Notes under the pieces: model-generated
The model's database searches: none
Seen by the model: the letters and a program-made list of their open reading frames with translations, nothing else
Told to the model about the DNA's origin: nothing
Part shown: positions 41,673 through 56,477 of the stretch, in pieces
How positions within the stretch are numbered: position 1 is the stretch's first letter
Layout: each line of letters opens with the position of its first letter
Program-made: the position numbers and the translations under genes
Source: Paenibacillus riograndensis SBR5
GTDB lineage: Bacteria > Bacillota > Bacilli > Paenibacillales > Paenibacillaceae
Length of the DNA stretch: 64,000 bases
Assembly: GCF_000981585.1 (NCBI RefSeq)
Contig: NZ_LN831776.1
Location: 5,253,187 to 5,317,186, forward strand
Direction: 5' to 3'

Positions 41673-42650
41673 TGTCAATAGAGTGGACACAGTAAAATCA
41701 GTTTGCTAGTGCAAGATTGCTGTAATATAGTTCCTCAAAGCGATCCGGTGAAAGATAACCCAGCTTACTGTGTATTCGTTTTCGGTTATAGAAGAACTCA
41801 ATATACCGAAACAACTGGTTCTGCGCTTCTTTTTGCGTTTGGAATTTTGTACGGTAGATGAGTTCTCGTTTGAGAATACTGTGAAACGATTCAATGCAAG
41901 CATTGTCGTAGCAGTTCCCTCGGCGGCTCATGCTGCGAATCATATGGTATCCCTTGAGCTTTTTCCGGTACTCTACAGAGGCGTACTGACTTCCGCGATC
42001 GGAATGGTGATCAGTCCTTTCCCGGGCTTCTGTGCGCTGTAGGCCTTGTCCAGGGCCGCTGAAACCAATTCGACTTTCATTCGGTTGCCCAGTTGCCAGC
42101 CGACAATCTTGCGTGTGTATAAATCTAAAACGCTCGCTAAATAGACCGTGCCTTGGCGTGTTCGGATATAGGTAATATCCGTGACCCATACTTGGTTGGG
42201 CCTAGTACACACGTCGAAATGTTGGTTTAGCCAATTCGGGGCAATCGAGAAGTCGTGGTTCGAATCAGTCGTCTGAACTTTAAAATTCCCCATTGCTTGG
42301 GAACGAAGATTGTGCTCTCGCATGAGTCAGCCTACCGTTTTCTCTCCCACGGTAAACCCTTCTTGCTGGAGCTTCTTTGTGATTTTGGGGCTACCGTAAA
42401 TTTCACCGTTGTCATGAAAGTGGTATTCAATGCGCTGTACGAGCCGTTCCCGATGCTTCTTGCGCTCACTGGGAGGAGTCGCCCGCCACTTGTAATATCC
42501 ACTTCGGGAGACTCCGAGTACGCTGCACATCTTCTCAATGCGGAACACGGAGCGATGTTCCTCAATAAACTGGAACTTCAGTCCCGGTCTTTGCTGAAGA
42601 TGTGCATTGCCCTTATTTGTCCCTTTTCCCTTTGTTCCAGGCTCCATCAA
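41673..42650 (-). mobile_element. Decayed IS3-family insertion sequence
   Basis: A putative left end (TGTCAATAGAGTGGACAC at 41673) lies 25 bases from the stop of a broken orfB. OrfA and the other terminal repeat are not present, so this is a 5'-truncated remnant. The repeated GGCTCCTGGGTCCG / GGGCTCCTCTGTCCG motifs beyond 42650 belong to some other element. Confidence 0.8.
41698..42650 (-). pseudogene. IS3-family transposase OrfB, with one nonsense codon and one frameshift
   Basis: Three pieces in order make one DDE transposase: CSVLGVSRSGYYKWRATPPS (from 42650 to a TGA at 42327-42329 where GEKTVG-x-LMREHNLRS expects Arg), then FDVCTRPNQVWVTDITYIRT and SVLDLYTRKIVGWQLG, then, after a one-base loss near 42009, HHSDRGSQYASVEYRKKL and CIESFHSILKRELIYRT. 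All rve-type catalytic residues are recognisable but not in one frame, so no functional transposase can be made. Confidence 0.9.
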
Positions 42651-42820: not shown

Positions 42821-42848
42821 ATCCGCTTCCCCACAAGGGAAAGCGGAT
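42821..42848 (-). terminator. Terminator of the glycation-type gene cluster
   Basis: ATCCGCTT/AAGCGGAT stem with TCCCTTGTGGGG inside; on the minus strand seven T residues follow. It lies 29 bases after the GntR regulator stop and ends the long cluster. Confidence 0.9.
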
Positions 42849-42877: not shown

Positions 42878-43588
42878 TTATACATGCAGTTTATATTTCT
42901 CGCCGTTGATGATTTGGTTTCCTACATATACGATTTTATCGTTGTTCCCGTATACGACGCCATGGACCAGCAGCAGAGGACTATTCTTGCTGACCTGCAG
43001 ATAGGAAGCCTCCTGCATAGTGGCCCGGCAAATCTCGATCGTACGTTTGGATTTGGATATCTGAATCCCTGTTTTTTCTTTCAAAATTTGAAACAATGAA
43101 TGATCATTCAGGTTCTCTTCCAGCAAAAACGAATATTGAATGGAAAAATAGTTGTTTTCGATAACCATCGGATTGTTGTCCAACAGCCGGAGACGAGAGA
43201 TATAAACGGTTTGACTGCCCGGGGGAAGCTCCAGCTGTTCGAGAATGTCATTGCCGGGGATCATTAGCTCGGAGGCCAGCACCTTCGCACTCGGGACCGC
43301 CCCAATCAGCTTGCTGGCTTCGGTAAAGCTGAGAATCTGGTTTAGATCCTTTGGATATTTGGCCATGGCGACAAATGTACCTTTGCCTTGCCTTTTCTCC
43401 AGCAGTCCTTCGTTCCTCAGCTCATTGGTCGCCCTCCGGACGGTGATTACACTGACTTCATATTTTTGAGCCAACTCCACTTCGGGCAGCAGCTTCTCTC
43501 CAGGCTTCAGCCTTCCTTCGGCAATTTCGTTCTTCAGCTTTTCTTTTAGCTGCTCATACAATGGTGTAGCGATTTTCTCGTCTAACAT
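42878..43588 (-). CDS. GntR/HutC-family transcriptional regulator with UTRA domain
   Basis: 236 residues. The winged helix-turn-helix (residues about 8-75) has ATPLYEQLKEKLKNEIAEGR, ELAQKYEVSVITVRRATNEL and EKRQGKGTFVA. The C-terminal UTRA domain (about 95-232) binds an effector, typically a sugar phosphate in this family, with VYISRLRLLDNNPMVIENNY. Last gene of the cluster and most likely its regulator, analogous to FrlR of the Bacillus fructosamine operon. Its effector may be a phosphorylated Amadori product; that is inference. Confidence 0.9.
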   Translation of the reverse strand: MLDEKIATPLYEQLKEKLKNEIAEGRLKPGEKLLPEVELAQKYEVSVITVRRATNELRNEGLLEKRQGKGTFVAMAKYPKDLNQILSFTEASKLIGAVPSAKVLASELMIPGNDILEQLELPPGSQTVYISRLRLLDNNPMVIENNYFSIQYSFLLEENLNDHSLFQILKEKTGIQISKSKRTIEICRATMQEASYLQVSKNSPLLLVHGVVYGNNDKIVYVGNQIINGEKYKLHV

Positions 43589-43652
43589 AATAGGCGTCCC
43601 CTCATAAACCGGTTTCTTTCCATTTTATGATAACCAATTGTATGCCCAGCGT

Positions 43653-44639
43653 CTAGTGCTCATCGTTGTATAAGTGGCATGAAACACTGTGGTTACCCTG
43701 GGTTTGCAGCAAAATCGGGACCTCTACCGAACATTTGTCCATCCGGTACGGGCAGCGTGTGTGGAAGGAGCATCCGGGAGGAGGATTGGACGGACTTGGC
43801 ACATCCCCTTCTAAAACGATCCGTTCTCTGCTTATTTCGGGATTGGGATTCGGAATCGCTGACAGCAATGCTTTGGTATAGGGATGAAGCGGATTTCCAT
43901 ACAGCTCATTCCGGTCTGTGATCTCAACAATTTTGCCCAAGTACATCACGGCCACCCGGTCGCACAAATGATGAACCACACTCAGGTCATGGGAGATGAA
44001 CAGATAGGTTAATCCCAGCTTCTCCTTCAGCTCTTTCATCAAATTTAATACTTGCGCCCGTACAGAGACGTCCAGGGCGGAAACGGGCTCATCGCAAACG
44101 ATCAGCTTCGGCTCCACCGCCAATGCCCTCGCAATACCGATCCGCTGTTTTTGGCCGCCCGAAAATTCATGCGGAAACCGGTTAACATAATCTTTGTTCA
44201 ATCCGACCAGCTCAAGCAGCTCGTTAATGCGTCTTTCTTTAGCTTCGCCTTGGGCAAGTCCATATATATCCAAAGGTGCGCCAATGATTTCACCGACAGT
44301 CATACGCGGATTTAACGCCGCACCCGAATCCTGAAAAATAATCTGCAGCTCTTTCCTCATCATCCGCTTTTCTTCCTTGCCGTACGCAAGGATGTCTTGT
44401 CCTTCGAAGACAATATTCCCGGAAGTCGGCTCAATTAATCTCAGGATCGAGCGGCCCAATGTGGATTTTCCGCAGCCGCTCTCTCCGACCAGCCCCAATA
44501 TTTCCCCTTTGCGGATATTCAGGCTGATCCCGTCCACCGCTTTGACAACCGGTTTTTTCCGGCTCAGCAGACCCGATTTGGAGGTATAATGTTTTTTCAG
44601 CTCCCGGACTTCCAGCAGATAGGGACTGGGGTTTCCCAT
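43653..44639 (-). CDS. Oligopeptide/dipeptide ABC transporter ATP-binding protein (OppF/DppF)
   Basis: 328 residues from the ATG at 44639. Walker A GESGCGKSTLGRS, Q-loop IIFQDSGAALNPRMTVGEI, signature LSGGQKQRIGIARALA (here FSGGQKQR), Walker B LIVCDEPVSALD, and the C-terminal oligopeptide-specific segment HPYTKALLSAIPNPNP followed by a CSFHTRCPYRMDKC cysteine motif that can bind a [4Fe-4S] cluster in this subfamily. It starts five bases after the OppD-like stop. Confidence 0.94.
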   Translation of the reverse strand: MGNPSPYLLEVRELKKHYTSKSGLLSRKKPVVKAVDGISLNIRKGEILGLVGESGCGKSTLGRSILRLIEPTSGNIVFEGQDILAYGKEEKRMMRKELQIIFQDSGAALNPRMTVGEIIGAPLDIYGLAQGEAKERRINELLELVGLNKDYVNRFPHEFSGGQKQRIGIARALAVEPKLIVCDEPVSALDVSVRAQVLNLMKELKEKLGLTYLFISHDLSVVHHLCDRVAVMYLGKIVEITDRNELYGNPLHPYTKALLSAIPNPNPEISRERIVLEGDVPSPSNPPPGCSFHTRCPYRMDKCSVEVPILLQTQGNHSVSCHLYNDEH

Positions 44640-44644
44640 CGCGT

Positions 44645-45625
44645 TCACCTTCTTTCGATTTTTCCGGAATATAGAAAGCATCTGACTTTGCGTTGATCGA
44701 CCTCATACAGCTCCGGCTTCTCCTGTTTGCATATCTCCTGGGCATAAGGGCATCTAGGCCAAAAGCTGCAGCCTTTGGGGAGGTCATACAGACTGGGAAC
44801 GGAGCCGGGAATCGCCTCAAGCTTATCCTTGGGATCATCAATTTTCGGCAAGGAATTCATCAGGCCTTCCGTATAGGGATGCAGAGGTTTGTTATACAAG
44901 GACTTAACGTCACTGTATTCAACAACTGTTCCTGCATACATGACGATAACATAATCGGCCATTTCAGCGACGACACCCAAATCATGCGTAATCATCATAA
45001 TCGAAGTGTGGAACTTGTCTTTCAGGCTTTTCATCAATTCCAGAATTTGCGCCTGCACGGTAACATCCAGCGCGGTGGTGGGCTCGTCAGCGATCAGCAG
45101 CTCAGGGTTGCAGGAAAGAGCCATGGCAATCATGACCCTTTGCCTCATCCCTCCGCTCAGCTCATGCGGATATTCATCCACTCTTTTATCCGGATCGGGT
45201 ATCCCGACCAGCTTGAGCATTTCGACCGCCCTGCTCCGGGTCGTTTTCTTGTCCAGCTTCTGGTGGGTCCGGATAGCTTCCCCGATTTGATAGCCCACCG
45301 TATATGCCGGATTGAGTGAGGTCATCGGCTCCTGAAAAATGATTGAAATTTCGTTGCCCCGGATCCGGGTCATCTGGCGGTCGTTCAGACCGACCAGATC
45401 CTTCCCCTTGAACAGCACTTGACCATCCACAATTTTGGCTTCAGGCGCCAGCAGCTTTAAAATGGACATCGCAGTCACGCTTTTGCCGCAGCCGGACTCC
45501 CCGACAATTCCCAGCGTTTCACCTTTACGCACTACAAAATCTACACCATTGACAGCGGGAACCTGTTTGTTGAAATGATTGAAATAGGTTTTTAACCCTT
45601 TTACCTCCAGCAGATAATCACTCAT
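44645..45625 (-). CDS. Oligopeptide/dipeptide ABC transporter ATP-binding protein (OppD/DppD)
   Basis: 326 residues. Walker A GESGCGKSVTAMSIL, LSGGMRQRVMIAMALS, Walker B LLIADEPTTALD, and the C-terminal HPYTEGLMNSLPKIDDPKDK and CSFWPRCPYAQEIC segments. Pairs with the OppF-like ATPase to energise the importer made by the permeases at 48798-50636. Confidence 0.94.
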   Translation of the reverse strand: MSDYLLEVKGLKTYFNHFNKQVPAVNGVDFVVRKGETLGIVGESGCGKSVTAMSILKLLAPEAKIVDGQVLFKGKDLVGLNDRQMTRIRGNEISIIFQEPMTSLNPAYTVGYQIGEAIRTHQKLDKKTTRSRAVEMLKLVGIPDPDKRVDEYPHELSGGMRQRVMIAMALSCNPELLIADEPTTALDVTVQAQILELMKSLKDKFHTSIMMITHDLGVVAEMADYVIVMYAGTVVEYSDVKSLYNKPLHPYTEGLMNSLPKIDDPKDKLEAIPGSVPSLYDLPKGCSFWPRCPYAQEICKQEKPELYEVDQRKVRCFLYSGKIERR

Positions 45626-45650
45626 CCTGTTCCCCCCTCACATGAAGCTG

Positions 45651-47072
45651 TTATTCACGGTTCTTCATCTCTTCGGCTACTTGCGGGAACAGGTTCAAGT
45701 AATAGACCATCGACTTCTCGAAATCCAGCACGCCTTTGACTGTACAGTACTCATTGCTGGAGTGCTGTCTTGAACCATGACCCATTCCTCCGGTTACGTA
45801 GGGGAGTCCCAATATTTTTCCGAATAAAAAATAGGGGGCGGACCCCGGATTCCACGGCCAGATCTGCGGACGCGCACCCATCAGCTCATACATTCTTTTC
45901 AGGGTCTGCACTGACGTGGAGTAGTAGGGAACACTGGAAGGATAATAGGCCTTCCCATACTCCGTAATCTCAATATCGGAATACCCGTGCTTGTCCAGAT
46001 GATTTCTGATTTTGCCAAGCATCTTCTCCGGGTCCATGCCCGGAACAAGCCGTATATCCATCTTCACGGTGGTTTCATGGGGCAGCAGTGTTTTGGAGCC
46101 TTCGCCGATATAGCCGCCTTTGATGCCGTCAATATTCAGGGTTGGCACCGTCAGCATCTTTTTCCACAAGTCCAGGCCTTCCAAATCCCATTTGAACCGG
46201 TCGATTGCATATGCCTTTTTCCATTGCTCTTCGTCCAGCAGATCAGCCGATGCGTCCAAGGCATCTTCGCCTTCCTTCGCCAAAGGCAGAATGCCGTCGT
46301 AGAAGCCCTCCACCAGAATCTCCTTCTCATCTTCCCCGACCATGGTCGACAGAGCCTTCACCAGCCGCCAGGCCGGATTGCCGACCCAGGCGGCAAAAGC
46401 CCCGTGAATCCCTCTTTCCTTCGGGCCACCCCAGCTTCCGCCCTTCGCCTTCAACTCGAAGCTTACGATCCCCTTCACACCCATAAAAATCGAGGCTACC
46501 CGGTTTTCTTCACCGAATGACGGAAAAAACATGGCGTCGCATTCGGCAAATTTGTCTTTGTTGTCCACCAGAAACTGCTGCAGGGATTTGGAAGACAGCT
46601 CTTCTTCGCCTTCGATCAGGAATACCAGATTAACCGGCAGCTTTCCTTTGATCTTTTTGTACGCCTTGATCGTATTGAAGAACGCTGCTGTAGGTCCTTT
46701 GGTATTGACTGCGCCCCTGCCGATGATACATTTGCCGTAATCCTGAAAGTCATGAATTTCCGCCGCCCACGGGTCAGAGATCCAGTCCGGCTCTTCCGCC
46801 GGCAGCACATCGTACATGCTGTAAATCAACAGGGTATACTGTGCCCCTTCATCCAGTTTGCCGTATACAATCGGATGGCCCGGTGTTTCGATAATCTCTG
46901 AAGCGCCGCCGACCTCTTCAATCATCGCCTTGACAACCTGCGCCGTTTCACGGATGCCCTCACCTGTGGCTGAGATCGATTTTAACCTCATGAACTCTTG
47001 TGTCGATTTGAGATCCTCTTCAAAATGCTGCTCCAGATAATCAAAAACATCCTTCATTTCAGTGAGCTCCAT
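45651..47072 (-). CDS. M20-family amidohydrolase/peptidase with atypical metal site
   Basis: 473 residues, M20 fold with the inserted dimerisation domain. The usual zinc-ligand HxD reads S-M-Y-D (85-88), the bridging Asp in the RGAxD-KG loop is Asn (RGAVNTKGP, 123), and the later Asp ligand region reads FPSFGEEN; the catalytic IEGEEELSS (154 on) and the last His in GHGSRQHSSNEY (437) remain. Three of five expected ligands differ, so metal binding is in doubt; it may be a distinct subfamily that I half recall, not a random decay, because the frame is clean. In this cluster it could release an amino acid from a conjugate or peptide. Confidence 0.85.
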   Translation of the reverse strand: MELTEMKDVFDYLEQHFEEDLKSTQEFMRLKSISATGEGIRETAQVVKAMIEEVGGASEIIETPGHPIVYGKLDEGAQYTLLIYSMYDVLPAEEPDWISDPWAAEIHDFQDYGKCIIGRGAVNTKGPTAAFFNTIKAYKKIKGKLPVNLVFLIEGEEELSSKSLQQFLVDNKDKFAECDAMFFPSFGEENRVASIFMGVKGIVSFELKAKGGSWGGPKERGIHGAFAAWVGNPAWRLVKALSTMVGEDEKEILVEGFYDGILPLAKEGEDALDASADLLDEEQWKKAYAIDRFKWDLEGLDLWKKMLTVPTLNIDGIKGGYIGEGSKTLLPHETTVKMDIRLVPGMDPEKMLGKIRNHLDKHGYSDIEITEYGKAYYPSSVPYYSTSVQTLKRMYELMGARPQIWPWNPGSAPYFLFGKILGLPYVTGGMGHGSRQHSSNEYCTVKGVLDFEKSMVYYLNLFPQVAEEMKNRE

Positions 47073-47116
47073 ATTCCAAAACCTCCAAATTGATTATTAG
47101 TCCCTGTGTACGAGAT

Positions 47117-48781
47117 TTATTTGGCGATCTTCCATTTCCATGACGCGAAATTCATCCAGACGAAGTCCTCCATCGGCACGTCAGTCAGGCGGGAGGAATG
47201 GGCCCACAAATTGTTTTGATGGTAGAGCCAGATATACGGCTGATCCTTCACGAGGGCCTGTTGGTACTCATCGTATACCGCTTTTCGTTGGTCAAAATCA
47301 TAAAGAGAAAAGCCTTTGGCGGCAATATCGTACCATTTGGAATCTTTCAGCAGGGAATAGTTTCTCGAGTCGCCCGGCTTCATAATGACGCTGCTTTCGC
47401 CCGGGTCAATATTGCTGCCTCCGCCCAGCAGGCCAAGGTCCGATTCCCCATTCTTAAGCATCGACAGGAGTGTGGCAAAATCATAGGTCTCAATCTTCAC
47501 CTTTACCCCGATGGCCGCCAAATCCTGCTGGATCAATAGCGCCGACTGCTCTCTGACCTGGTTGCCCTGCGGGACGATCAGCAGATATTCACGCTTAAAG
47601 TCGAAGCCGGCCGCTTCCAGCATCTGCTTGGCTTCATCCGGGTTGTATGCGTTCGGCACCAGGCTCTGATTGTAGTAGGGGTGGTACTTCGGCATCGGCC
47701 CGACCGCAACTCCCCCTTCGCCTTTCATGAGGTTGTCGACAATCAGAGTTTTGTTGATCGCTTTGTCAAAGGCTGTTCTTACGTTAGAATCCTGGAAGGT
47801 GTCCTTGGACAAGTTAAACAACATGTACTGGTAGGAATAATCCGGGATGGAGGAAGCTACAATATCCGGATTGTTTTTGACCGTGTCCCAGTCGGACAGC
47901 GGAATGCTCCCCATCGCCACCACATCGATATCCCCGTTGATCAAACCTGCAGTAAGGTTGGCCGCCGGCACGACACGTACGACCAGCGTTTTGAAGCCGG
48001 GGCTGCCCTGATAATAATCAGTAAAAGCCTCCAATTGAAGCGATTCGCCTGCGGTCTGTTTGACGAATTTGAAGGGACCGGCGCCAACCGGGGCATTCCA
48101 GAACCCGGAGGTGTTGATCGAAGCCGGATCGCCTTGGCCCAAAATATGCTCAGGAAGAACATAAAGGAAGCTCAGGAACGCATTCAGGATTGTTTCTTCG
48201 GCCTTTGGTTCCTTGAATGTGAATTTGACAGAGGTATCGCTTACCGCTTCCACGCCCACTTTTGCCGGATCCTGCGCAATGCCATCTGCATCTGTGCCAG
48301 CGAGTACATTGAAGGCGGAACGGTAGTAGTTGTTAACAGCCGGATTGGTCATTGCCTGCACAGTGAAGACAATATCCTTCGCGGTCAGCTTTTCCCCGTC
48401 ATGCCAGGTGACATTATCGGCAAGCTCGAACGTCATCGACAGATTATCGTCCGCCATGGCCCAGGATTTGGCGAGCCGGGGGATGACATTGCCGCCATGC
48501 TCTCTGAAAACGAGGCGTTCGAACAACTGGTCGGCAACCGCGTTGCCGTAATTCCCTGAAGTGTTGTAAATATTGAGTGTGTCCCAGGTAGAAATAATGG
48601 CCATGGTTACAATTCCGCTGGCTGCCCCGCCCTCGCTCTGCGGCTGCGGACTTGCCTCTGTCCCCGGCGGACTGCTGGCGTTTCCGGCAGTGTTGCCTGC
48701 GTTCGATGAACATCCAAACAAAAGAAGTGAAGCTGTAAGCATCATCACCAGCACGAACAGTAAGCGGTTGTTCTTCTTCAT
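47117..48781 (-). CDS. Peptide ABC transporter substrate-binding lipoprotein (SBP family 5)
   Basis: 554 residues from the ATG at 48781 (AAAGGAG eight bases upstream). Lipobox SLLLFGC with Cys at about residue 24 anchors it outside the membrane; the SBP_bac_5 pattern (LAKSWAMADDNLSMTFELAD, TWHDGEKLTAKDIVFTVQAM, and GVGAGPFK-type loop) follows. It captures the substrate for the two permeases. A family-5 protein suggests a peptide-like or conjugated amino acid ligand rather than a free sugar. Confidence 0.93.
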   Translation of the reverse strand: MKKNNRLLFVLVMMLTASLLLFGCSSNAGNTAGNASSPPGTEASPQPQSEGGAASGIVTMAIISTWDTLNIYNTSGNYGNAVADQLFERLVFREHGGNVIPRLAKSWAMADDNLSMTFELADNVTWHDGEKLTAKDIVFTVQAMTNPAVNNYYRSAFNVLAGTDADGIAQDPAKVGVEAVSDTSVKFTFKEPKAEETILNAFLSFLYVLPEHILGQGDPASINTSGFWNAPVGAGPFKFVKQTAGESLQLEAFTDYYQGSPGFKTLVVRVVPAANLTAGLINGDIDVVAMGSIPLSDWDTVKNNPDIVASSIPDYSYQYMLFNLSKDTFQDSNVRTAFDKAINKTLIVDNLMKGEGGVAVGPMPKYHPYYNQSLVPNAYNPDEAKQMLEAAGFDFKREYLLIVPQGNQVREQSALLIQQDLAAIGVKVKIETYDFATLLSMLKNGESDLGLLGGGSNIDPGESSVIMKPGDSRNYSLLKDSKWYDIAAKGFSLYDFDQRKAVYDEYQQALVKDQPYIWLYHQNNLWAHSSRLTDVPMEDFVWMNFASWKWKIAK

Positions 48782-48797
48782 ATCATTTCTCCTTTGT

Positions 48798-49667
48798 TTA
48801 AAGTCTGGTTTTGGGGTCCAATGCGTCCCGCAGGCCGTTGCCGACAAAATTAATGGATAAGATAGTGAGGATAAGCAGAAGTCCGGGAGGCAGCCACATC
48901 CATGGCCGTTCCGATAAAATCGTGATGGACTGCGCATTGTACAGCATATTCCCCCAGGAAGCAGCCGGAGGCTGAACACCCATGCCGAGAAAGCTCAGTG
49001 ACGATTCAAGAATGATCGCCCCGGCAATCCGAAAGGTGATTTGAATGAGGATCGGCGCGATGGCGTTGGGCAAAATGTATTTGAAAATGATGGTTCTCTG
49101 CTTCTCGCCGATAGCGGCCGCACCTTCGATATAATCCTTTTCTTTGATGCTCAGCACGGTGCCAAACATGAGCCTGGCGAAAAACGGCCAGCCCAGTACG
49201 CCGATTACCACAGTTACCGTAATAATGGAAGGGCCAAAAATGGAGACCAGAAACAGGATCAGAATTATATTCGGGAAGGACAGGAAGATATCAGCTAACC
49301 GCATGGTCACCGTTTCGAACTTCCCCCGGAAAAAGGCAGCCAGCAGCCCGAGCGGAATCCCCAGCGCGACACTGATCAATGCGGAGAGAATCCCGACAAA
49401 AAGCGATACGCGTCCGCCGTTTAACAGCCGGCTCAGGACATCCCGTCCAACATCATCCGTCCCCAGGAGATGGCTGCCGCCGGGGGCTGCGCTGAAAGCG
49501 AGCGGGTCGATTTGGTCTTCGGCATATTGCAGGAACGGGGGGAGAAAGGCAACGAGCAGCCCGATCAGCACGATGGAGACCAGTCCTGCAATAGCCAGTT
49601 TGTTGTGACAATACCGTTTCATAAAGTTAAGGAAGACTGTCCGTTTTCTGCTGTTTGCTTTCACCAT
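48798..49667 (-). CDS. Peptide-type ABC transporter permease (DppC/OppC)
   Basis: 289 residues from the ATG at 49667 (AGGTGG eight bases upstream). HLLGTDDVGRDVLSRLLNGG and the EAA loop EGAAAIGEKQRTIIFKYILP define the OppC/DppC type; about six membrane segments. Follows the OppB-like permease gene by 12 bases. Confidence 0.93.
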   Translation of the reverse strand: MVKANSRKRTVFLNFMKRYCHNKLAIAGLVSIVLIGLLVAFLPPFLQYAEDQIDPLAFSAAPGGSHLLGTDDVGRDVLSRLLNGGRVSLFVGILSALISVALGIPLGLLAAFFRGKFETVTMRLADIFLSFPNIILILFLVSIFGPSIITVTVVIGVLGWPFFARLMFGTVLSIKEKDYIEGAAAIGEKQRTIIFKYILPNAIAPILIQITFRIAGAIILESSLSFLGMGVQPPAASWGNMLYNAQSITILSERPWMWLPPGLLLILTILSINFVGNGLRDALDPKTRL

Positions 49668-49679
49668 ACAGATCGCCAC

Positions 49680-50636
49680 CTAGTCATAACGAATCCTCGG
49701 ATCCAACAATCCATAGACAAGATCCGTAATAAGATTAAAAATCAAGACTGCCAGCGCAACCAGCACCGTAACTCCCATAATGACAGGATAGTCACGGGCG
49801 GAGATGGACTGAATCATCAGCTTTCCGATCCCCGGCCAGGAAAAAACCTGTTCGGTAACGACCGCACCGCCGAGCAGAAGCGGAATCTCCATCCCCAGAT
49901 AGGTAGCCACGGGGATCAGGGAATTCCGGAGCACATGTCTTACAATCAGCACACGCTCCTGTAATCCCTTCGCTTTGGCGGTCCGGACGTAGTCCTCCCG
50001 CATCACCTCCAGCATGCTGCTGCGCGTAAATTGAATCAGCGTCCCCATCATGTGAAAGGATAACACCAGGCAAGGCATAATCAGATGCGCCAATAATGAC
50101 AAGAAGCTGTTAGCTGTCCCAACGGTGTACATTCCGCCGATAGGCAGAAGCTGCAATTTTACCGAAAATAAATAAAGCAGCACCAAGGCAATAAAAAAGC
50201 TGGGCGTTGAGGTGGCCAGGAAGGAAAACACAGCGGCCAGGTTGTCCCATAATTTACTTTGGTGCCTTGCCGACTGGATGCCTAACGGGATGGCAATCAG
50301 GCAAGCCAGGAGGACCGAAGCGACAACTAGAATGGAGGTAGCCCCCAAACCTTTAAGAATCATGCTGGTCACGGCTTCCATCGTCCGGTACGATTCGCCG
50401 AAATTGCCTGTAAGCATATTGCCCAGCCAGGAAAAATACTGCATATAGACCGGCTGATCCAAACCAAGCTTGATCCGCTGCCGCTCAATTTCTGCTTCCG
50501 AAATGTTTTGATTGCTGAGCAGCAGCTCCAGCGGGCTTCCCGACGCCAGGTAGGAAACAAAAAACACCAGTATGGTAATTCCCAAAAACGTCGGCAATGC
50601 GATGAGCAGCCGCCGCAATACATATGTTTTCATCAT
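49680..50636 (-). CDS. Peptide-type ABC transporter permease (DppB/OppB)
   Basis: 318 residues; YVLRRLLIALPTFLGITILV at the N-terminus and the EAA-like DYVRTAKAKGLQERVLIVRH are OppB/DppB signatures. The frame starts ATGATG and either ATG could be used. It follows the deglycase gene by 20 bases. Confidence 0.93.
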   Translation of the reverse strand: MMKTYVLRRLLIALPTFLGITILVFFVSYLASGSPLELLLSNQNISEAEIERQRIKLGLDQPVYMQYFSWLGNMLTGNFGESYRTMEAVTSMILKGLGATSILVVASVLLACLIAIPLGIQSARHQSKLWDNLAAVFSFLATSTPSFFIALVLLYLFSVKLQLLPIGGMYTVGTANSFLSLLAHLIMPCLVLSFHMMGTLIQFTRSSMLEVMREDYVRTAKAKGLQERVLIVRHVLRNSLIPVATYLGMEIPLLLGGAVVTEQVFSWPGIGKLMIQSISARDYPVIMGVTVLVALAVLIFNLITDLVYGLLDPRIRYD

Positions 50637-50656
50637 TCACCCCACCTACATTCTGC

Positions 50657-51628
50657 TTAATATTCCACCTTCCACATGTATCTGCGCATATTCATAGAAT
50701 GATTTCTGATCTCAGCCATACGGGACACGATATCCCGTTCCACCGGGATCATGATGACGGAGAGGAAATACTCGGCAACGGAATCGTCAATGATGTTAAT
50801 TCCCAGTTCTTTTGCATCGATGACAGTCACCCGCTGGGCATAGCGGGTCAGGAAGGTCAAAGCCCGTTCGTCGAGCGGACGGGTGGCGCCTTCCGACACA
50901 AAGAGGATGATCGGGATGTTTTTATCGGTCGTTTCAAACGGTCCATGAAAATATTCACCTGAATGCATCGGCACCGCATGCCTCCATTGCATCTCCATAA
51001 AGTGGCAATAAGCCATCGTATAAGCTGTGCTATAGGCCGGGCCGCTTGCCATGACGTAGAAGATTTCATCGTCCTTGTACTCATCCGCAAACCTGCTGGC
51101 GATACGTTTGATATAAGTGCGGGCGCTGGCCACTATCGAGTCCACCTTGGTGAATGCTTCGAGCGCCGCCTGGTAGTGGGCATAGGCTTCGAACTGATGC
51201 AGAATTTCAAAGCTGATGCGCAGTACGGAGGATTGGTTGCCTTGGCTGTAAATTTGCTGCTCTCCGTTCGAATAGACTACGGGATACATGCCGTTTGTGG
51301 CCATCTCTGTGGTGGGAAACCCGGTCATGGCGATTGTATAGGCTCCCCGCTCATTCGCCAGTTGAACGGCTTGCACCGTTTCAGCCGTGGCATTTAGCGA
51401 GCACAGCACCACAATGCACTGTTCATCCAGCATCGCCGGTGTCGCATGGACAAATTCACTGCTGTTATAGATCGAGGTTCCGAAGGTCCGTGCCTCTTTT
51501 TGAATGAGATAATGGCCGCTGAAGATTGCCGCCTGGGAGCCTCCGCAGGCAACAAAGTAAATATGCTTCAGTCCCCCGTTTTCCTTGAGCTTGCTTCTGA
51601 TGTCACTGATAATGTCCTTAATTTCCAT
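50657..51628 (-). CDS. frlB: SIS-domain protein, FrlB-like fructosamine-6-phosphate deglycase
   Basis: 323 residues with two SIS (sugar isomerase) domains. The first has YFVACGGSQAAIFSGH as phosphate-binding loop; the second ends with the MHSGEYFHGPFE motif and RRYMWKVEY C-terminus, which resemble FrlB of Escherichia coli (HGPLE and a VEY terminus). FrlB cleaves phosphorylated fructosamines to glucose-6-phosphate and the free amine. Context with a FrlD-like kinase supports this role; the exact amine is unknown. Glucosamine-6-phosphate-type deaminases of the same fold are the alternative. Confidence 0.82.
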   Translation of the reverse strand: MEIKDIISDIRSKLKENGGLKHIYFVACGGSQAAIFSGHYLIQKEARTFGTSIYNSSEFVHATPAMLDEQCIVVLCSLNATAETVQAVQLANERGAYTIAMTGFPTTEMATNGMYPVVYSNGEQQIYSQGNQSSVLRISFEILHQFEAYAHYQAALEAFTKVDSIVASARTYIKRIASRFADEYKDDEIFYVMASGPAYSTAYTMAYCHFMEMQWRHAVPMHSGEYFHGPFETTDKNIPIILFVSEGATRPLDERALTFLTRYAQRVTVIDAKELGINIIDDSVAEYFLSVIMIPVERDIVSRMAEIRNHSMNMRRYMWKVEY

Positions 51629-51664
51629 GGTTCTCCTCCGTTTGCCGGATAGGTGCCTATCCGC

Positions 51665-53386
51665 TTATTGTTGGGCAATTTGATATCCCTGCGGGGTCTG
51701 GATGATTGGCAGGCCATACTTCTCTTTCGCCTGCCGGATACTGATCTTCTTCTCAATGACGTCTTTCAGGACAAGTGAAGGGTCTCTGTCGGCCGGATTG
51801 CCGTAGCCGCCAGCCCCCGGCGTGTGGATGACGATCCGGTCCCCCCGGTTCAGGACGATCTCCGTACATTTGGAAGGGAGTCTTTCTACAGAATTGTCGG
51901 CGCGTTTCAGCTGATAGACGCCTCCTGCCCCCTCTCCGCCGCCATTCAAGCCCCAGGGGAGAAACTTCTGCCTGTCTCCAAGTCCTGTGAACGTAACCTG
52001 GTCAAACCGGGACTCGAACTCCCGGCGGATTCCCAGGCCTCCGCGGTACTCACCCGCTCCGCCGCTGTCTTCAATCAGGGAATATTCCCGCACGATTACC
52101 AGCGGAAACTCCATTTCCAGCGCTTCAATCGGTAAGTTGGAGGTGTTCGTCAAATGAACCTGCACACCGTTCAGTCCGTCCGCCCGCCGGCTGGCCCCCG
52201 AACCCCCGGCGATCGTCTCCAGATAGACATAGAATTGATCGGGATCACGGGGGTCATATCCGCTGAATACCGCCGTCGTACATGAACTGTTGCACCCTGC
52301 GATGGCCCTGTCCGGGACCAGCGGTGCCATCGCACCGAAGATGACGTCACTGACCCGCATGCAGGTGTCGATCCGCGCACCGACCGGGGCCGGATTGCGT
52401 GCGTTGATAATCAGCCCGGGTTCGGCCTTGATCGTAAATGCACGGTAAATGCCTGCATTGGAGTAGATATCCGGATCTATGAGCGCTTTGATCGAATAAA
52501 AGACAGTGGCCAGCAGCCCGTTATACGTGACATTGATCGGGCCGTTTACCTGCGGCTGTGAGCCCGCAAAGTCCAGTTCCATCGCATCTCCCTGAATGGT
52601 AATTTTTACGGTCAGCTTGATGGGATCGGGACTGGCCGCTCCGGCATCATCCATGTAATCGGTAAAGCTGTATTCACCATCCTGAAGCTTTTCGATGCCC
52701 GCCCTTAATCTGCGCTCTGCATAATTTTGCAGCTGGGCCATGCTTAAGACCAGTGTCTCCCCATATTGTTCATAGGCTTCCAGCAGCCTTCTCACCCCAA
52801 CCCGGTTGGAGGCCATTTGCGCATGGAGATCGCCGTAACGTTCTTCAGGAATGCGGCTGTTGGTCATAATAAAATCTACAATCTCTTCATTGACCTCATC
52901 CTGGCGGCAAATTTTGGAGATGGGGATTTTTATCCCTTCCTGATAAATACTGACGGCGTCGCCGGAGGTGGAGCCCGGCACCTTTCCGCCTACGTCGCTG
53001 TGATGGGCCAAATTGGCCACCCAGCCGATGAGCCTTTCGCCCGCGAACACTGGTGCTACGATCGTAATATCCGGAAGATGGGTACCGCCTCCGTTATACG
53101 GATCGTTTCCGATAAACATGTCTCCCCGCTGTATGGCTTCCGGCGGATACTTGTTATACACCTCCTTAACGATGCTGAGCAATGAACCCAAATGCATCGG
53201 CACATGTTCAGCCTGGGCCACCAGATTGCCTTCCGGGTCAAAGACTGCGGCGGATATATCCCGCCGTTCCTTGATATTCGAGGAGTAGGCGCTCTTGATG
53301 ATGCTGATGCCTATTTCTTCAGCAATCGTGAGCAGCAGATTCCCGACAATTTCAACCGTCACTGCATCGACCTTGTGCTTATTCAT
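51665..53386 (-). CDS. hyuB: Hydantoinase B/oxoprolinase-family subunit
   Basis: 573 residues. VTVEIVGNLLLTIAEEIGIS, VFDPEGNLVAQAEHVPMHLG, GDMFIGNDPYNGGGTHLPDI and LAHHSDVGGKVPGS are diagnostic of HyuB/oxoprolinase beta subunits; C-terminal PGAGGYGNPADRDPSLVLKD also matches. With HyuA it makes an ATP-dependent enzyme that opens cyclic amides such as hydantoins or 5-oxoproline. Its ATG overlaps the hyuA stop by eight bases. Confidence 0.93.
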   Translation of the reverse strand: MNKHKVDAVTVEIVGNLLLTIAEEIGISIIKSAYSSNIKERRDISAAVFDPEGNLVAQAEHVPMHLGSLLSIVKEVYNKYPPEAIQRGDMFIGNDPYNGGGTHLPDITIVAPVFAGERLIGWVANLAHHSDVGGKVPGSTSGDAVSIYQEGIKIPISKICRQDEVNEEIVDFIMTNSRIPEERYGDLHAQMASNRVGVRRLLEAYEQYGETLVLSMAQLQNYAERRLRAGIEKLQDGEYSFTDYMDDAGAASPDPIKLTVKITIQGDAMELDFAGSQPQVNGPINVTYNGLLATVFYSIKALIDPDIYSNAGIYRAFTIKAEPGLIINARNPAPVGARIDTCMRVSDVIFGAMAPLVPDRAIAGCNSSCTTAVFSGYDPRDPDQFYVYLETIAGGSGASRRADGLNGVQVHLTNTSNLPIEALEMEFPLVIVREYSLIEDSGGAGEYRGGLGIRREFESRFDQVTFTGLGDRQKFLPWGLNGGGEGAGGVYQLKRADNSVERLPSKCTEIVLNRGDRIVIHTPGAGGYGNPADRDPSLVLKDVIEKKISIRQAKEKYGLPIIQTPQGYQIAQQ

Positions 53387-55448
53387 TTCCTTTCACCTCC
53401 CGATAAGCGGCCCTGATATTGCCCAGTTCATCGACATAAGCCTCCCAATGCGGAGGGAGAATGGTCGTGGAGTCCATTTCCTCGATGATCGCCGGACCTT
53501 GAATCTGACAGCCGATTTCTATCTCGTCCCTGTGGTAAACGTTAGTCAAATGTCTCACCGGCTCACCCTCAAACAGAACGTTGCGCACTTCCGCCGGCTC
53601 AGGCGGCTTGGCACCGGGGACCGCTTCCTTGACGGGCAGATCCGGCTTGTCAATTACGCCGATGGCGCTGACCCGGTAGTTAACCATCTGTATTTTTTTA
53701 TTGTGATTGGAATAGCCGTACAGTTTTTCGTGTTCGGCATGAAACGTTTGAATCATCTGCTCCAGAACATCCCCCGTTAATCCGGGGTCGATTGAAATCG
53801 GAATTTCATAGTTTTGCTTCTCGTACCTGCATTCGACCGTACACTTGAATTCGCGTTCCGTGTCGCCGACCTGCTCTTTGTCCAGGAATGCACTGCCGTC
53901 GCGGATCATGCGGGAGAATATTTCCTGCAGGGCGGGTACATTGCTTGGATCGGCAATCAACATCCGGGAATGGCTGAGATCGAATTTGGTATCCGCCATA
54001 AGCAGGCCAAGCGAGCACAGCGTTCCGGGAGAAGGCGGGATCAGGACCCGGTGGATGCCCATTTTTTGCGCAACCTCACATGCATGCAGCGGTCCTGCGC
54101 CGCCAAAAGCCATCAGTGTGAATTCACGGGGATCGTACCCCTTCTCTACGGACACGACCCGGATTGCCCGGATCATGTTGGAATTGACAACGGATACAAT
54201 TCCTGCGGCTGCCTCATCGGGGCTTAACCCTGATTTCTGCGAGATATGGCGGGTGATGGCTTGCTCGGCCAGCGGAGCCTTGATCTCCATTCGGCCGCCC
54301 AGAATGCGATAAGGGTTCAATTTCCCCAGCACCACGTTTGCATCGGTAACCGTGGGAAGTTCACCGCCCCGTCCATAACAGGCCGGTCCCGGCAGCGCCC
54401 CTGCACTTTGCGGGCCTACCTTTAATGCGCCGCCTTCGTCAATCTGCCCAATTGAGCCACCCCCGGCGCCTACGGTTGCAATGTCGATCATCGGAATCCG
54501 GGCCGGATAACCTTCAATCAGCCGTTCATTGGAAATTTGGGCCACGCCGTTTTCGATCAGGCTCACGTCAATGCTTGTTCCACCCATATCAAACGTAATA
54601 ATCTTTTCGATTCCACACTGTCCGGCGATGTAGTTCGCACCGATGACTCCTGCGCTTGGGCCGGATACCGCCGTTTTGACCGGGCTTTCAATGGTTTCGG
54701 CAATCGAAATCACGGAGCCGTTGGATTGCGTAATATAAGGATCTGCCTCCACTCCCGCATCAGCCACCGATGTGCCGAATCTGTCAACATACCTCTTCAT
54801 TACAGGACCAAGATAGGTGTTCAGCACCGTTGTGCTCATCCGCGAATATTCCCGGAATTCAGGAACAAGCTGGGAGGACAGGGTGATATAGGCATCCGGG
54901 CATTCCCTTAAAATCAGTTCCCTGATCTTCAGCTCATGGGCCGGGTTAATGAACGAAAATAAAGTGCATACGGCGAACCCTTCCACACCTTGGGCGGCCA
55001 AAGCGCGGACAACCGCCGAAATCTCTTCTTCGTCAATGTCCGTCTCAACCGTGCCATCGTAGAGGATTCTTTCTTTCACTTCATAGATCAGTCCGGATTC
55101 GATCAGGCTCGGCGGCTTCTTTTTGAGAAGGTCGTATAAGGACGGCCTTTTTTGCCAGCCGATTTCCATTAAATCTTTGAACCCCTTTGTCGTAATGAGT
55201 CCGATCCGGGCGCCCTTTTTCTCAATAAGCGCATTGGTCGCCACCGTAGTCCCATGGGCAAGATAACTTACGTCACCCGGAAGAATCGCATGCTCGCTTA
55301 AAATATGAATGACACCGTCGACAATGGCTTTCGATGGGTCCTCCGGGGTGGAGCTATGCTTGAAATGGCTCAGCTTGCCCTGCTTTTTATCGAACAAAGA
55401 AAAATCGGTAAATGTTCCGCCGACATCCACGCCAATCATATAGCTCAT
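53379..55448 (-). CDS. hyuA: Hydantoinase A/oxoprolinase-family ATP-dependent subunit
   Basis: 689 residues from the ATG at 55448. IGVDVGGTFTDFSLFD gives the ATP-binding actin-like motif; AHGTTVATNALIEKKGARIG, FDMGGTSIDVSLIENG and AFGGAGPLHACEVAQ are the HyuA signatures. Partner of HyuB in opening a cyclic amide at ATP cost. It follows the FrlD-like kinase gene by 19 bases, so the pathway combines a sugar kinase with a ring-opening step. Confidence 0.93.
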   Translation of the reverse strand: MSYMIGVDVGGTFTDFSLFDKKQGKLSHFKHSSTPEDPSKAIVDGVIHILSEHAILPGDVSYLAHGTTVATNALIEKKGARIGLITTKGFKDLMEIGWQKRPSLYDLLKKKPPSLIESGLIYEVKERILYDGTVETDIDEEEISAVVRALAAQGVEGFAVCTLFSFINPAHELKIRELILRECPDAYITLSSQLVPEFREYSRMSTTVLNTYLGPVMKRYVDRFGTSVADAGVEADPYITQSNGSVISIAETIESPVKTAVSGPSAGVIGANYIAGQCGIEKIITFDMGGTSIDVSLIENGVAQISNERLIEGYPARIPMIDIATVGAGGGSIGQIDEGGALKVGPQSAGALPGPACYGRGGELPTVTDANVVLGKLNPYRILGGRMEIKAPLAEQAITRHISQKSGLSPDEAAAGIVSVVNSNMIRAIRVVSVEKGYDPREFTLMAFGGAGPLHACEVAQKMGIHRVLIPPSPGTLCSLGLLMADTKFDLSHSRMLIADPSNVPALQEIFSRMIRDGSAFLDKEQVGDTEREFKCTVECRYEKQNYEIPISIDPGLTGDVLEQMIQTFHAEHEKLYGYSNHNKKIQMVNYRVSAIGVIDKPDLPVKEAVPGAKPPEPAEVRNVLFEGEPVRHLTNVYHRDEIEIGCQIQGPAIIEEMDSTTILPPHWEAYVDELGNIRAAYREVKGNE

Positions 55449-55467
55449 CAATGTTCACCTGGCCTTC

Positions 55468-56379
55468 TTAGGATGATTTGTTCGTCCGCGGCCGTTTCGG
55501 CAGCGGGTGCTGATATTTTTTGCCGTAGCCGAAGGCCCCCCGTTCCAGACAGCTTTGGGCCGCAAATGCAGCTGCGCTTGCGAGTGCCTGCCGGCAGGCT
55601 TCTTCCCGGTCATGCGTACTGGTATTCATCAGACCCTGATCTAGCTTGTTCTGACGCAAATAATCAACCAGAAACGCCGCCGCAAATGAATCGCCTGCCC
55701 CCAAAGTGTCAACCGGATCAACATATTGTGAGGCTTGGAACAATCTTAGTTCTCCATCATAGAACCAAGCCCCCCGGCTCCCCAATGTTGCGACTACGCT
55801 GCGGCAGCCCAGCGCATGAACCTTACGGCAGGTCTCCCCCGCCTCTTCATCCGTCATATCACTGCTGCATGAGAGGAAACCGTAGTCCAGGTGAGGGGCG
55901 ATTTGCTCCACATCCCTCCAATTGCTCCAGCTTTTTGAGAAATCATAGGAGATGGCTACACCCAGCTTGTGAACCTTGGACAGTTGCTCATTGAAATAGC
56001 TGTTGTTGCTGGTATGAACAAGATCAAACTGCCTAATATACGACTCGTCCCGGCTGTCAAGAATGATGGGCTTGTCCTTCAGCACCCCGCCCCGGTTGCT
56101 ACCCAGAAAAACCCGGTCCCCGTCTACCAGTTCCACCAGAGCATACCCATTCTCCCCTTGGACATGGCGGCAATGGCTGCGGTCAACTCCGACTTCATCC
56201 AGCGTACCGGCAATATGGCGGGCCACTGCATCATCGCCAAAAACTCCAATATAAGCCGATTCTGCCCCCAGCCGCTTGGCGTAGACGGAGAAGTTAAGGG
56301 CTTGTCCACCGGGGAACATCTCATAGGAATCCAAATAGATATCTCCGACATTGTCTCCTATGCCAATCACTTTCACCAT
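55468..56379 (-). CDS. frlD: PfkB-family kinase, FrlD-like fructosamine 6-kinase
   Basis: 303 residues from the ATG at 56379, with AGAGGGG eight bases upstream; an ATG two codons earlier sits too close. PfkB signatures: an N-terminal GDNVGDIYLDSYEMFPGGQA (substrate and first glycine motif), the FSKSWSNWRDVEQ loop, and VDPVDTLGAGDSFAAAFLVD with the catalytic Asp. The GDN-DIY start and 'YDFSKSW' loop resemble FrlD, which phosphorylates fructoselysine for FrlB. First gene of the cluster, directly behind the promoter at 56449. Confidence 0.82.
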   Translation of the reverse strand: MVKVIGIGDNVGDIYLDSYEMFPGGQALNFSVYAKRLGAESAYIGVFGDDAVARHIAGTLDEVGVDRSHCRHVQGENGYALVELVDGDRVFLGSNRGGVLKDKPIILDSRDESYIRQFDLVHTSNNSYFNEQLSKVHKLGVAISYDFSKSWSNWRDVEQIAPHLDYGFLSCSSDMTDEEAGETCRKVHALGCRSVVATLGSRGAWFYDGELRLFQASQYVDPVDTLGAGDSFAAAFLVDYLRQNKLDQGLMNTSTHDREEACRQALASAAAFAAQSCLERGAFGYGKKYQHPLPKRPRTNKSS

Positions 56380-56448
56380 GCGCATAACCCCTCTTATAAA
56401 AGTATACAAACTAATAATCGCTTATATAAACTTATATGTTTTTTTAAT

Positions 56449-56477
56449 AATCTATTACAAATTTTAAGTGTTGTCAA
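56449..56477 (-). promoter_or_regulatory. Candidate sigma-A promoter of the glycation-type cluster
   Basis: TTGACA (56472-56477), 17 bases, TAGATT (56449-56454) on the minus strand, about 70 bases before the FrlD-like start. The -35 is perfect, the -10 matches four of six. Confidence 0.65.

Follow-up and report, generated by a model that had tools for sequence, protein, structure and literature searches.

An eleven-gene operon of Paenibacillus riograndensis SBR5 lies on the minus strand at 42878-56379 of the 64,000-nucleotide stretch analysed here (contig NZ_LN831776.1, positions 5,253,187 to 5,317,186; hereafter the window), and comparative and chemical arguments give an even chance that it serves the salvage of lactam-locked Amadori compounds. 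In such a compound the nitrogen that carries the 1-deoxyfructosyl group also belongs to a ring amide; N-fructosyl-pyroglutamate is the likeliest example. From 5' to 3', the genes encode a FrlD-like PfkB kinase, HyuA, HyuB, a SIS-family protein, DppB, DppC, a family-5 lipoprotein, an M20-fold protein, DppD, DppF and a GntR/UTRA regulator. The first-pass annotation of this DNA had described a single-strand cluster between one promoter and one terminator, with a FrlD/FrlB-like pair and a HyuA/HyuB pair that opens cyclic amides with ATP. The cluster was confirmed, with both the promoter before it and the terminator after it predicted; the kinase and SIS protein are nearest to fructosamine kinases and deglycases, though below the curated cut-offs; and HyuAB has, as judged from sequence, the catalytic residues of ATP-dependent lactamases.

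In the proposed route, a Dpp-type ATP-binding cassette (ABC) transporter would import the conjugate, HyuA would activate the ring amide with ATP and HyuB would hydrolyse it, converting the amide nitrogen to a secondary amine (fructosyl-pyroglutamate to fructosyl-glutamate). The FrlD-like kinase would presumably act after this step, phosphorylating C6 of the sugar, and the FraB/FrlB-like deglycase would release glucose 6-phosphate and the free amino acid. Ring opening would have to precede deglycation, because on chemical grounds the deglycase is expected to require an amine, which the ring nitrogen, being an amide, is not. Peptide or amide forms would fall to the M20 protein.

Core enzymes and their relatives

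Window HyuA scored 617.4 bits against the caprolactamase CapA model and window HyuB 303.3 bits against the CapB model, both under the curated cut-off of 1000. HyuA carries the motifs GVDVGGTFTD and DMGGTSID at the positions of CapA D11 and D295, so that both ATP-site aspartates are kept, and HyuB keeps all four CapB metal ligands. The ATP-site aspartates and metal ligands matter in caprolactamase (PMC8453981; statements attributed to papers cited by PMC number refer to the available parts of those papers).

The best NCBIfam model for the window kinase was the fructoselysine 6-kinase PRK09813 (176.7 bits; cut-off 247). The kinases of two further loci described below, L053 and L072, were also under this cut-off (165.7 and 165.1 bits, respectively), and that of L054 passed it (251.3 bits). 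The PDB sequence search alone placed the window kinase no nearer to any single sugar kinase. Phosphorylation of fructosamines at C6 is predicted for it, and relatives with 54-63% identity adjoin HyuAB in loci L039, L040, L041 and L053.

The SIS product matched PDB chains 9otj (265.6 bits) and 3eua (244.2 bits), the latter of which we take to be B. subtilis FrlB, and deglycase-type chains scored 240-266 bits in the PDB phmmer search. It is 42% identical to annotated fraB products of plasmid records and scored 81.6 bits against the FrlB model PRK11382 (cut-off 430). Its Glu212 and His228 align with residues 214 and 230 of a fraB product, and the Glu/His pair is kept in 42 of 42 aligned rows; E214 and H230 are presumably the catalytic pair of FraB. 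The substrates of FraB and of the B. subtilis enzymes are alpha-glycated amino acids (PMC9609667; PMC12632257), and FraB and FrlB have a general acid and base in common (PMC9609667, which does not name E214 and H230 in its available part).

A tree of 42 SIS rows placed the window protein in a 30-row clade (100/100) with HyuAB-linked members scattered through it: 18 rows were HyuAB-linked (13 called from equal-sized contigs only, the rest read directly), 11 had no linkage call and 1 was without HyuAB. FraB and the four other FrlB-like paralogues of the host fell outside this clade. The SIS protein of the Priestia plasmid locus (L072) fell outside two well-supported branches and is itself on a long branch. 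This scatter and the Priestia placement suggest that the HyuAB-deglycase linkage probably had more than one origin or was shuffled. The four host paralogues (35-44% identity) are encoded at G000:C1 1574706 (L061), 5659548 (L059), 5674531 (L058) and 7737427 (L060) of the single 7.92-Mb contig; three have genes for a FrlD-like kinase and a GntR protein as neighbours, and about 8 kb separate the fourth from a PfkB kinase.

Recurrence of the core in other genomes

A search for the same gene set elsewhere, proposed in the first-pass annotation as a check, found the neighbours conserved together. The eleven-gene order is the same in loci L039 (Gordonibacillus kamchatkensis) and L040 (Bacillus renqingensis), at 57-88% protein identity in these two, and also in L062 of the 99% sister genome G208. 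The order is not due to chance, because it is identical gene for gene in these three loci. The closest named relative of the cluster belongs to the Paenibacillaceae. A SIS-based scan of genome contigs (84,980 species), with patterns from one protein that miss more distant cases, yielded 4 loci.

Three other loci retain the core with different importers. L041 (Bacillus sp. REN16) keeps the kinase, HyuA, HyuB, SIS and GntR genes; where the window has the M20 protein and the Dpp system, it encodes a protein of the MmgE/PrpD family, a binding protein of family 1 and two permeases judged by eye to be of CUT1 type. L053 (clostridial genome G937) was found by a HyuA search of 391 genomes in the class of a Lachnoclostridium metagenome-assembled genome, and reads divergent GntR, TRAP transporter (DctP and DctM by Pfam), kinase, FrlC-like epimerase, HyuA, HyuB and SIS. 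On a Priestia filamentosa plasmid, L072 reads MFS transporter, SIS, HyuA, HyuB, kinase and GntR, with only 35% identity to the window in SIS and 50% in HyuA. The five-gene core (kinase, HyuA, HyuB, SIS, GntR) was thus present in 7 of the loci read with four unrelated importer classes: Dpp with M20 in the window, L062, L039 and L040, CUT1 in L041, TRAP in L053 and MFS in L072. The epimerase of L053 (11162-12016, between kinase and HyuA) scored 144.8 bits against the fructoselysine 3-epimerase model (cut-off 305), which suggests that psicosyl conjugates may also be used there.

As a linkage control, 18 HyuA loci were read over 14 to 26 kb, or within the window itself, by tblastn of the window proteins (E 1e-8). 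Where HyuA was at least 50% identical to the window protein (window, L062, L039, L040, L041, L053, L054/L085, L072), a FrlD-like kinase was present in 8/8 loci and SIS in 7/8, whereas at 48% identity or less (L055, L056, L057, L071, L073, L074, L088-L091) kinase and SIS were each found in 0/10. The HyuA-kinase linkage was significant over all loci (Fisher P = 2e-5) and for the loci reached through HyuA alone (L053, L054/L085 and L072; 3/3 vs 0/10, P = 0.0035), L039, L040 and L041 having been found through SIS. The control contains near-identical loci (window/L062 and L090/L091) and an 88% alike pair (L071/L073), and its four plasmid loci were hand-picked from 40 listed rows. Contig sizes were also compared between the best 120 HyuA rows (of 7921 proteins matching at 1e-100), the best 120 SIS rows and 119 of 120 M20 rows, the last row carrying no length. 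The HyuA and SIS lists had 14 equal-sized contigs in common, including Anaerovirgula, Geosporobacter and Petroclostridium records, although equal size of short contigs can be coincidence.

The operon is rare and patchy in the genome samples searched. A deglycase orthologue was found in 2 of 394 family-sample genomes (the own genome and G208). Some deglycase match at 1e-20 occurred in 41 of the 394, the non-orthologues being at most 45% identical except one in G233 (51% across 184 residues, interrupted by a stop). In the class sample, the deglycase was detected at 1e-80 in 1 of 398 genomes, the own one, and the M20 protein at 1e-100 in 2 of 388. Of the 17 genomes sampled around L041 and the 7 around L053, just the L041 and L053 genomes themselves had a deglycase with at least 70% identity, and G868 holds a 46% relative. 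HyuA reached at least 62% identity in 1 of the 391 genomes of the search that led to L053.

Candidate substrates and rival explanations

The importers bear directly on the substrate. The window has a complete Dpp/Opp-type set (SBP_bac_5, two permeases, two oligo_HPY ATPases), for which a peptide is a candidate ligand. Its binding protein matched HbpA, AppA, DppA and, lower, AgaA in PDB, where the family-5 chains matched bear the names of opine, nickel, haem and peptide binders. The first-pass interpretation, in which glycated amino acids or peptides are imported, is supported in part. Glycated peptides as the substrate of the core are not supported: that substrate is probably a small fructosyl conjugate and not a peptide as such, because the core recurs while the importer is swapped among Dpp, CUT1, TRAP and MFS systems. 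TRAP importers usually carry carboxylates and CUT1 importers sugars, and for both classes a peptide would be a poorer fit than a small acidic sugar conjugate. As for the cyclic form, for which the earlier proposal named a hydantoin- or pyroglutamate-like ring, a hydantoin might also fit, but the nearest precedents found are lactam opines. N-fructosyl-pyroglutamate was annotated by liquid chromatography-mass spectrometry in buckwheat honey (PMC12114437), and a pyroglutamic acid-glucose Amadori product is reported from soy sauce (PMC8303902). In the available part of PMC11395089, pyroglutamic acid and fructosyl amino acids were present, and the conjugate was not seen.

Several observations weigh against salvage of lactam-locked compounds. 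The core parts are separable: L042, the locus of the Lachnoclostridium genome, lacks HyuAB but encodes kinase, SIS, GntR, a Dpp importer and other M20 proteins, and in L054/L085, a second HyuAB locus from Petroclostridium, HyuAB and kinase are present but SIS is missing. None of the kinase, SIS, HyuA, HyuB and M20 proteins of the window reaches the curated cut-off of its nearest NCBIfam model, HyuAB linkage could not be checked for 11 of the 42 SIS tree rows, and the window binding protein is nearer to many other family-5 proteins than to AgaA. The putative operator described below was found in neither L042 nor L072 when searched there. At 15 HyuB pocket positions, the window is identical to opine-plasmid HyuB at 11, to the unlinked HyuB of L055 at 7, to N-methylhydantoinase at 5 and to CapB at 0 (counts from one alignment; positions 365 and 368 are placed differently by two alignments). 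The 11/15 is a weak excess over the roughly 6.6 expected from 44% overall identity (binomial P = 0.02), and active-site columns are conserved anyway, which weakens the comparison; the pocket was rejected as proof of substrate. As to what else these two loci contain, a 198-aa protein without an NCBIfam match, C39-peptidase-like by eye, lies between importer and SIS in L042 (9390-9986), and L054/L085 also has a Dpp importer, the place of SIS beside its kinase being taken by a YjbQ-family protein and, judged by eye, a possible amidohydrolase.

Glycated peptides, cyclic dipeptides or hydantoins might instead be imported, with HyuAB opening a ring elsewhere in the conjugate, the M20 protein cleaving a peptide bond, and kinase and SIS deglycating the product. 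We consider this unlikely, while giving it appreciable weight. Among the complete-core loci, the M20 relative occurs only together with the Dpp importer (window, L039, L040, L062), and M20 rows with at least 70% identity, among those best listed, match the HyuA list at 4 of 18 contigs by equal size. The remaining 101 M20 rows, which take in three short fragments of close relatives, have 1 equal-sized contig in common with the HyuA list and 1 with the SIS list. The core, however, also occurs with CUT1, TRAP and MFS importers in loci where no M20 relative was found (L041, L053 and L072, 3 of the 7 complete-core loci). The window protein itself has the M20 fold without the five-ligand metal site. 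With the canonical ligands (presumably His, bridging Asp, Glu, Asp/Glu and His) placed by carnosinase positions, it has Met86, Asn123 and Pro184 at three of the five positions and keeps Glu157 and His437. The same Met/Asn/Pro occupy these positions in nearly all of the 120 best-listed homologues, and the nearest solved relatives are Sso-CP2 and carnosinases. The protein thus appears to represent an M20 subfamily with a rebuilt metal site, possibly with a mononuclear or non-metal activity, and the trimming role first assigned to it is unsafe. A classical hydantoin route (HyuA, HyuB and an M20-fold carbamoylase), which the presence of the M20 protein brings to mind, seems improbable in view of these solved relatives and because the hydantoinase/carbamoylase model TIGR01879 is not among the 25 best of 34 families for the window M20.

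It is rather improbable that HyuAB serves a separate nutrient, such as free 5-oxoproline or hydantoin, that co-occurs with Amadori compounds, the operon then providing joint salvage of decaying plant or food material and no linear pathway. The absence of kinase and SIS from all ten loci with more distant HyuAB would fit this, but all eight close HyuAB adjoin FrlD-like kinases across Bacilli and Clostridia, and the Priestia plasmid has the SIS, kinase, HyuAB and GntR set in a different gene order with diverged members.

It is very unlikely that the substrate is agropinic acid or another mannityl opine lactam, with HyuAB opening the ring and an enzyme encoded elsewhere in the genome oxidising the product to the fructosyl form. 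HyuAB relatives do adjoin AgaA on opine plasmids, and the window binding protein belongs to the same broad family as AgaA; none of the 11 genes, however, encodes an oxidoreductase for the mannityl-to-fructosyl step, and a close HyuA (66%; its kinase linkage not checked) occurs in gut-type Clostridia such as Pseudoflavonifractor, where crown-gall opines would not be expected. That kinase and SIS act on an ordinary sugar or amino sugar unrelated to glycation is highly improbable and was given low weight: neither reaches a curated Frl cut-off and the PDB search does not tie the kinase to any particular sugar kinase, but the best models, the solved SIS relatives and the SIS tree all point to fructosamine enzymes, the L053 operon includes a FrlC-like epimerase, and the kinase of the sibling locus L054 passes the FrlD cut-off.

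HyuAB unlocking a lactam for a fructosamine kinase and deglycase would, we think with slightly less than an even chance, be an undescribed route, perhaps with more than one origin (a Bacillus-Clostridia clade and the Priestia plasmid), served by four importers, and in its Dpp form accompanied by an M20 protein with a rebuilt site. The individual parts are already known; we found no description of HyuAB together with fructosamine enzymes in the literature searched, where most subscription journals are not covered. PMC10410297 mentions both Amadori compounds and hydantoinase, in places that have nothing to do with each other. Salvage of lactam-locked compounds, if correct, would explain bacterial recovery of sugar and amino acid from the pyroglutamate-type Amadori compounds of honey and soy sauce, since the frl and fra pathways known so far use conjugates with a free amine and would presumably not attack the lactam forms. 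It would also provide a sequence marker for the lactam-opening step in Bacilli and Clostridia, assign a substrate class to one branch of HyuAB, a large family whose members are mostly unassigned, and tie crown-gall opine catabolism to Maillard-product catabolism by the same chemistry.

Operon layout, regulation and known systems

The positions of the genes and putative control elements are listed in Table 1. Intergenic gaps, in gene order, are 16, -8, 36, 20, 0, 13, 44, 25, -37 and 64 bases, so that two gene pairs overlap and the widest gap is 64 bases. The Pfam search covered 10 of the 11 products, and the kinase was identified from NCBIfam and PDB matches.

Table 1. Predicted genes and control elements of the operon, in window coordinates
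Feature	Position	Strand	Basis or remark
Predicted sigma-70-like promoter, TTGACA-17-TAGATT	56449..56477	-	promoter scan; aligned upstream regions
Putative operator CATATAAGTTTATATAAG and weaker copy just downstream	56421..56438	-	a short way downstream of -10 element
PfkB-family kinase, FrlD-like	55468..56379	-	NCBIfam PRK09813; DTxGAGD motif; open reading frame (ORF) open from 56409
HyuA, predicted ATP-binding subunit of ATP-dependent lactamase/hydantoinase	53379..55451	-	Pfam PF05378, PF01968, PF19278
HyuB, predicted metal-binding hydrolytic subunit	51665..53386	-	PF02538, 618 bits
SIS-family fructosamine-6-phosphate deglycase-like protein (FraB/FrlB-like)	50657..51628	-	PDB 9otj, 3eua; annotated fraB 42%
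DppB-type permease	49680..50636	-	PF00528, PF19300
DppC-type permease	48798..49679	-	PF00528, PF12911
Family-5 solute-binding lipoprotein	47117..48784	-	PF00496, 284 bits
M20-fold protein, substituted metal site	45651..47072	-	Met86, Asn123, Pro184 at three ligand positions
DppD-type ATPase	44645..45625	-	PF00005, PF08352
DppF-type ATPase	43653..44681	-	PF00005, PF08352
GntR/UTRA regulator, final gene of the operon	42878..43588	-	PF00392, PF07702
Intrinsic-terminator-like hairpin, 12-pair stem and T run	42821..42848	-	terminator scan

ATG 56379 is the likelier start of the kinase, since the match to the FrlD profile sets in at residue 11 of the longer ORF; by eye, the binding protein appears to start at 48784 and not at 48979. 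Counts of promoter-like and terminator-like signals in the window were barely above shuffled sequence (20 vs a mean of 14.5, and 20 vs a mean of 15.7, for the two kinds), and the calls at the operon are credible because of their position and not because of the scan counts.

In the putative operator core, 15 of 16 columns were invariant across five aligned operons (window, G208, L039, L040 and L041), the window and G208 being near-identical. The 17-base core has one exact site in the whole genome and ten further matches, all with two mismatches; the number of matches for the operator pattern (11) was similar to that for a reversed control pattern (8). A tandem pair, 20 bases apart, precedes both the L041 operon (2 found vs 0.05 expected) and the L053 TRAP genes (2 found vs 0.01 expected). 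The GntR protein encoded in the operon is the obvious candidate regulator for the putative ATATAAGTWTATATAAG site, and probably controls the operon. The operator was rejected as a marker common to all these loci, because it was found in neither L042 nor L072. In the sister genome G208, the operon regulator is readable only as a 159-aa ORF (L062 2989-3468), and regulation may be lost there.

Just past the terminator, broken-looking short transposase ORFs (41698-42650; an integrase core domain in one, IS3 type by eye) are compatible with a horizontal arrival of the operon. At 58328-59914 of the window, one ORF fuses an extracytoplasmic function (ECF) sigma factor (regions 2 and 4) to a DUF1835 domain.

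Among known systems, the aga region of the opine plasmids pTiBo542 and pAoF64/95 resembles the window in having an importer with a family-5 binding protein next to HyuAB. Agropinic acid is a mannityl lactam, that is, a sugar-amino-acid lactam, and AgaA is presumably its binding protein; Lyi, Jafri and Winans reportedly assigned the opening of its ring to hydantoinase-like aga genes in 1999. On both plasmids the importer beside HyuAB has AgaA or a near-AgaA binding protein (6hlx, 980 and 1018 bits), and the plasmid proteins are 45% (HyuA) and 43-44% (HyuB) identical to the window pair, compared with 31% for CapB. Unlike the window, the aga region handles a mannityl and not a fructosyl conjugate, and has short-chain dehydrogenase/reductase (SDR) and flavin adenine dinucleotide (FAD) oxidoreductases; nothing in the stretches read matched the window kinase or SIS. 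The pTiBo542 region also has an MmgE/PrpD gene, as does L041; the two genes beside HyuAB (L041 6713-8110; pTiBo542 L071 15824-17157, annotated as two coding sequences) encode proteins 22% identical over the matched part. These proteins are possibly epimerases of N-substituted amino acids, for which iminodisuccinate epimerase is an MmgE/PrpD precedent. A structural study of agropinic-acid import is named in a reference title within PMC6683767, an agropinic acid uptake operon on pAoF64/95 is mentioned in a figure legend of PMC6341043, and in PMC8554961 the hydantoinase/lactamase genes of a different Ti region are linked, as a speculation by its authors, to an opine that forms a lactam.

CapAB of Pseudomonas jessenii belongs to the same family as the window pair, with the same ATP-site aspartates and four metal ligands (PMC8453981), but acts on a plain lactam and has no pocket position in common with window HyuB. 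The B. subtilis frlBONMD-frlP system likewise combines FrlB and FrlD enzymes with ABC import, and uses alpha-glycated amino acids under the repressor FrlR; unlike the window, it has a sugar-type importer (FrlONM), and neither HyuAB nor an M20 gene belongs to the operon as described in the available part of PMC12632257. Salmonella fraBDAE-fraR has a FraD-type kinase, the FraB deglycase and a GntR regulator like the window, but a single transporter gene (fraA) and no ATP-dependent lactamase, and the amide concerned is a side-chain and not a ring amide. As in the proposed route, this amide is hydrolysed within the pathway, where the asparaginase FraE removes it and the deglycase substrate is 6-phosphofructose-aspartate (PMC4072780, PMC4941530). 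HyuAB would take the role that FraE has in this fructose-asparagine pathway.

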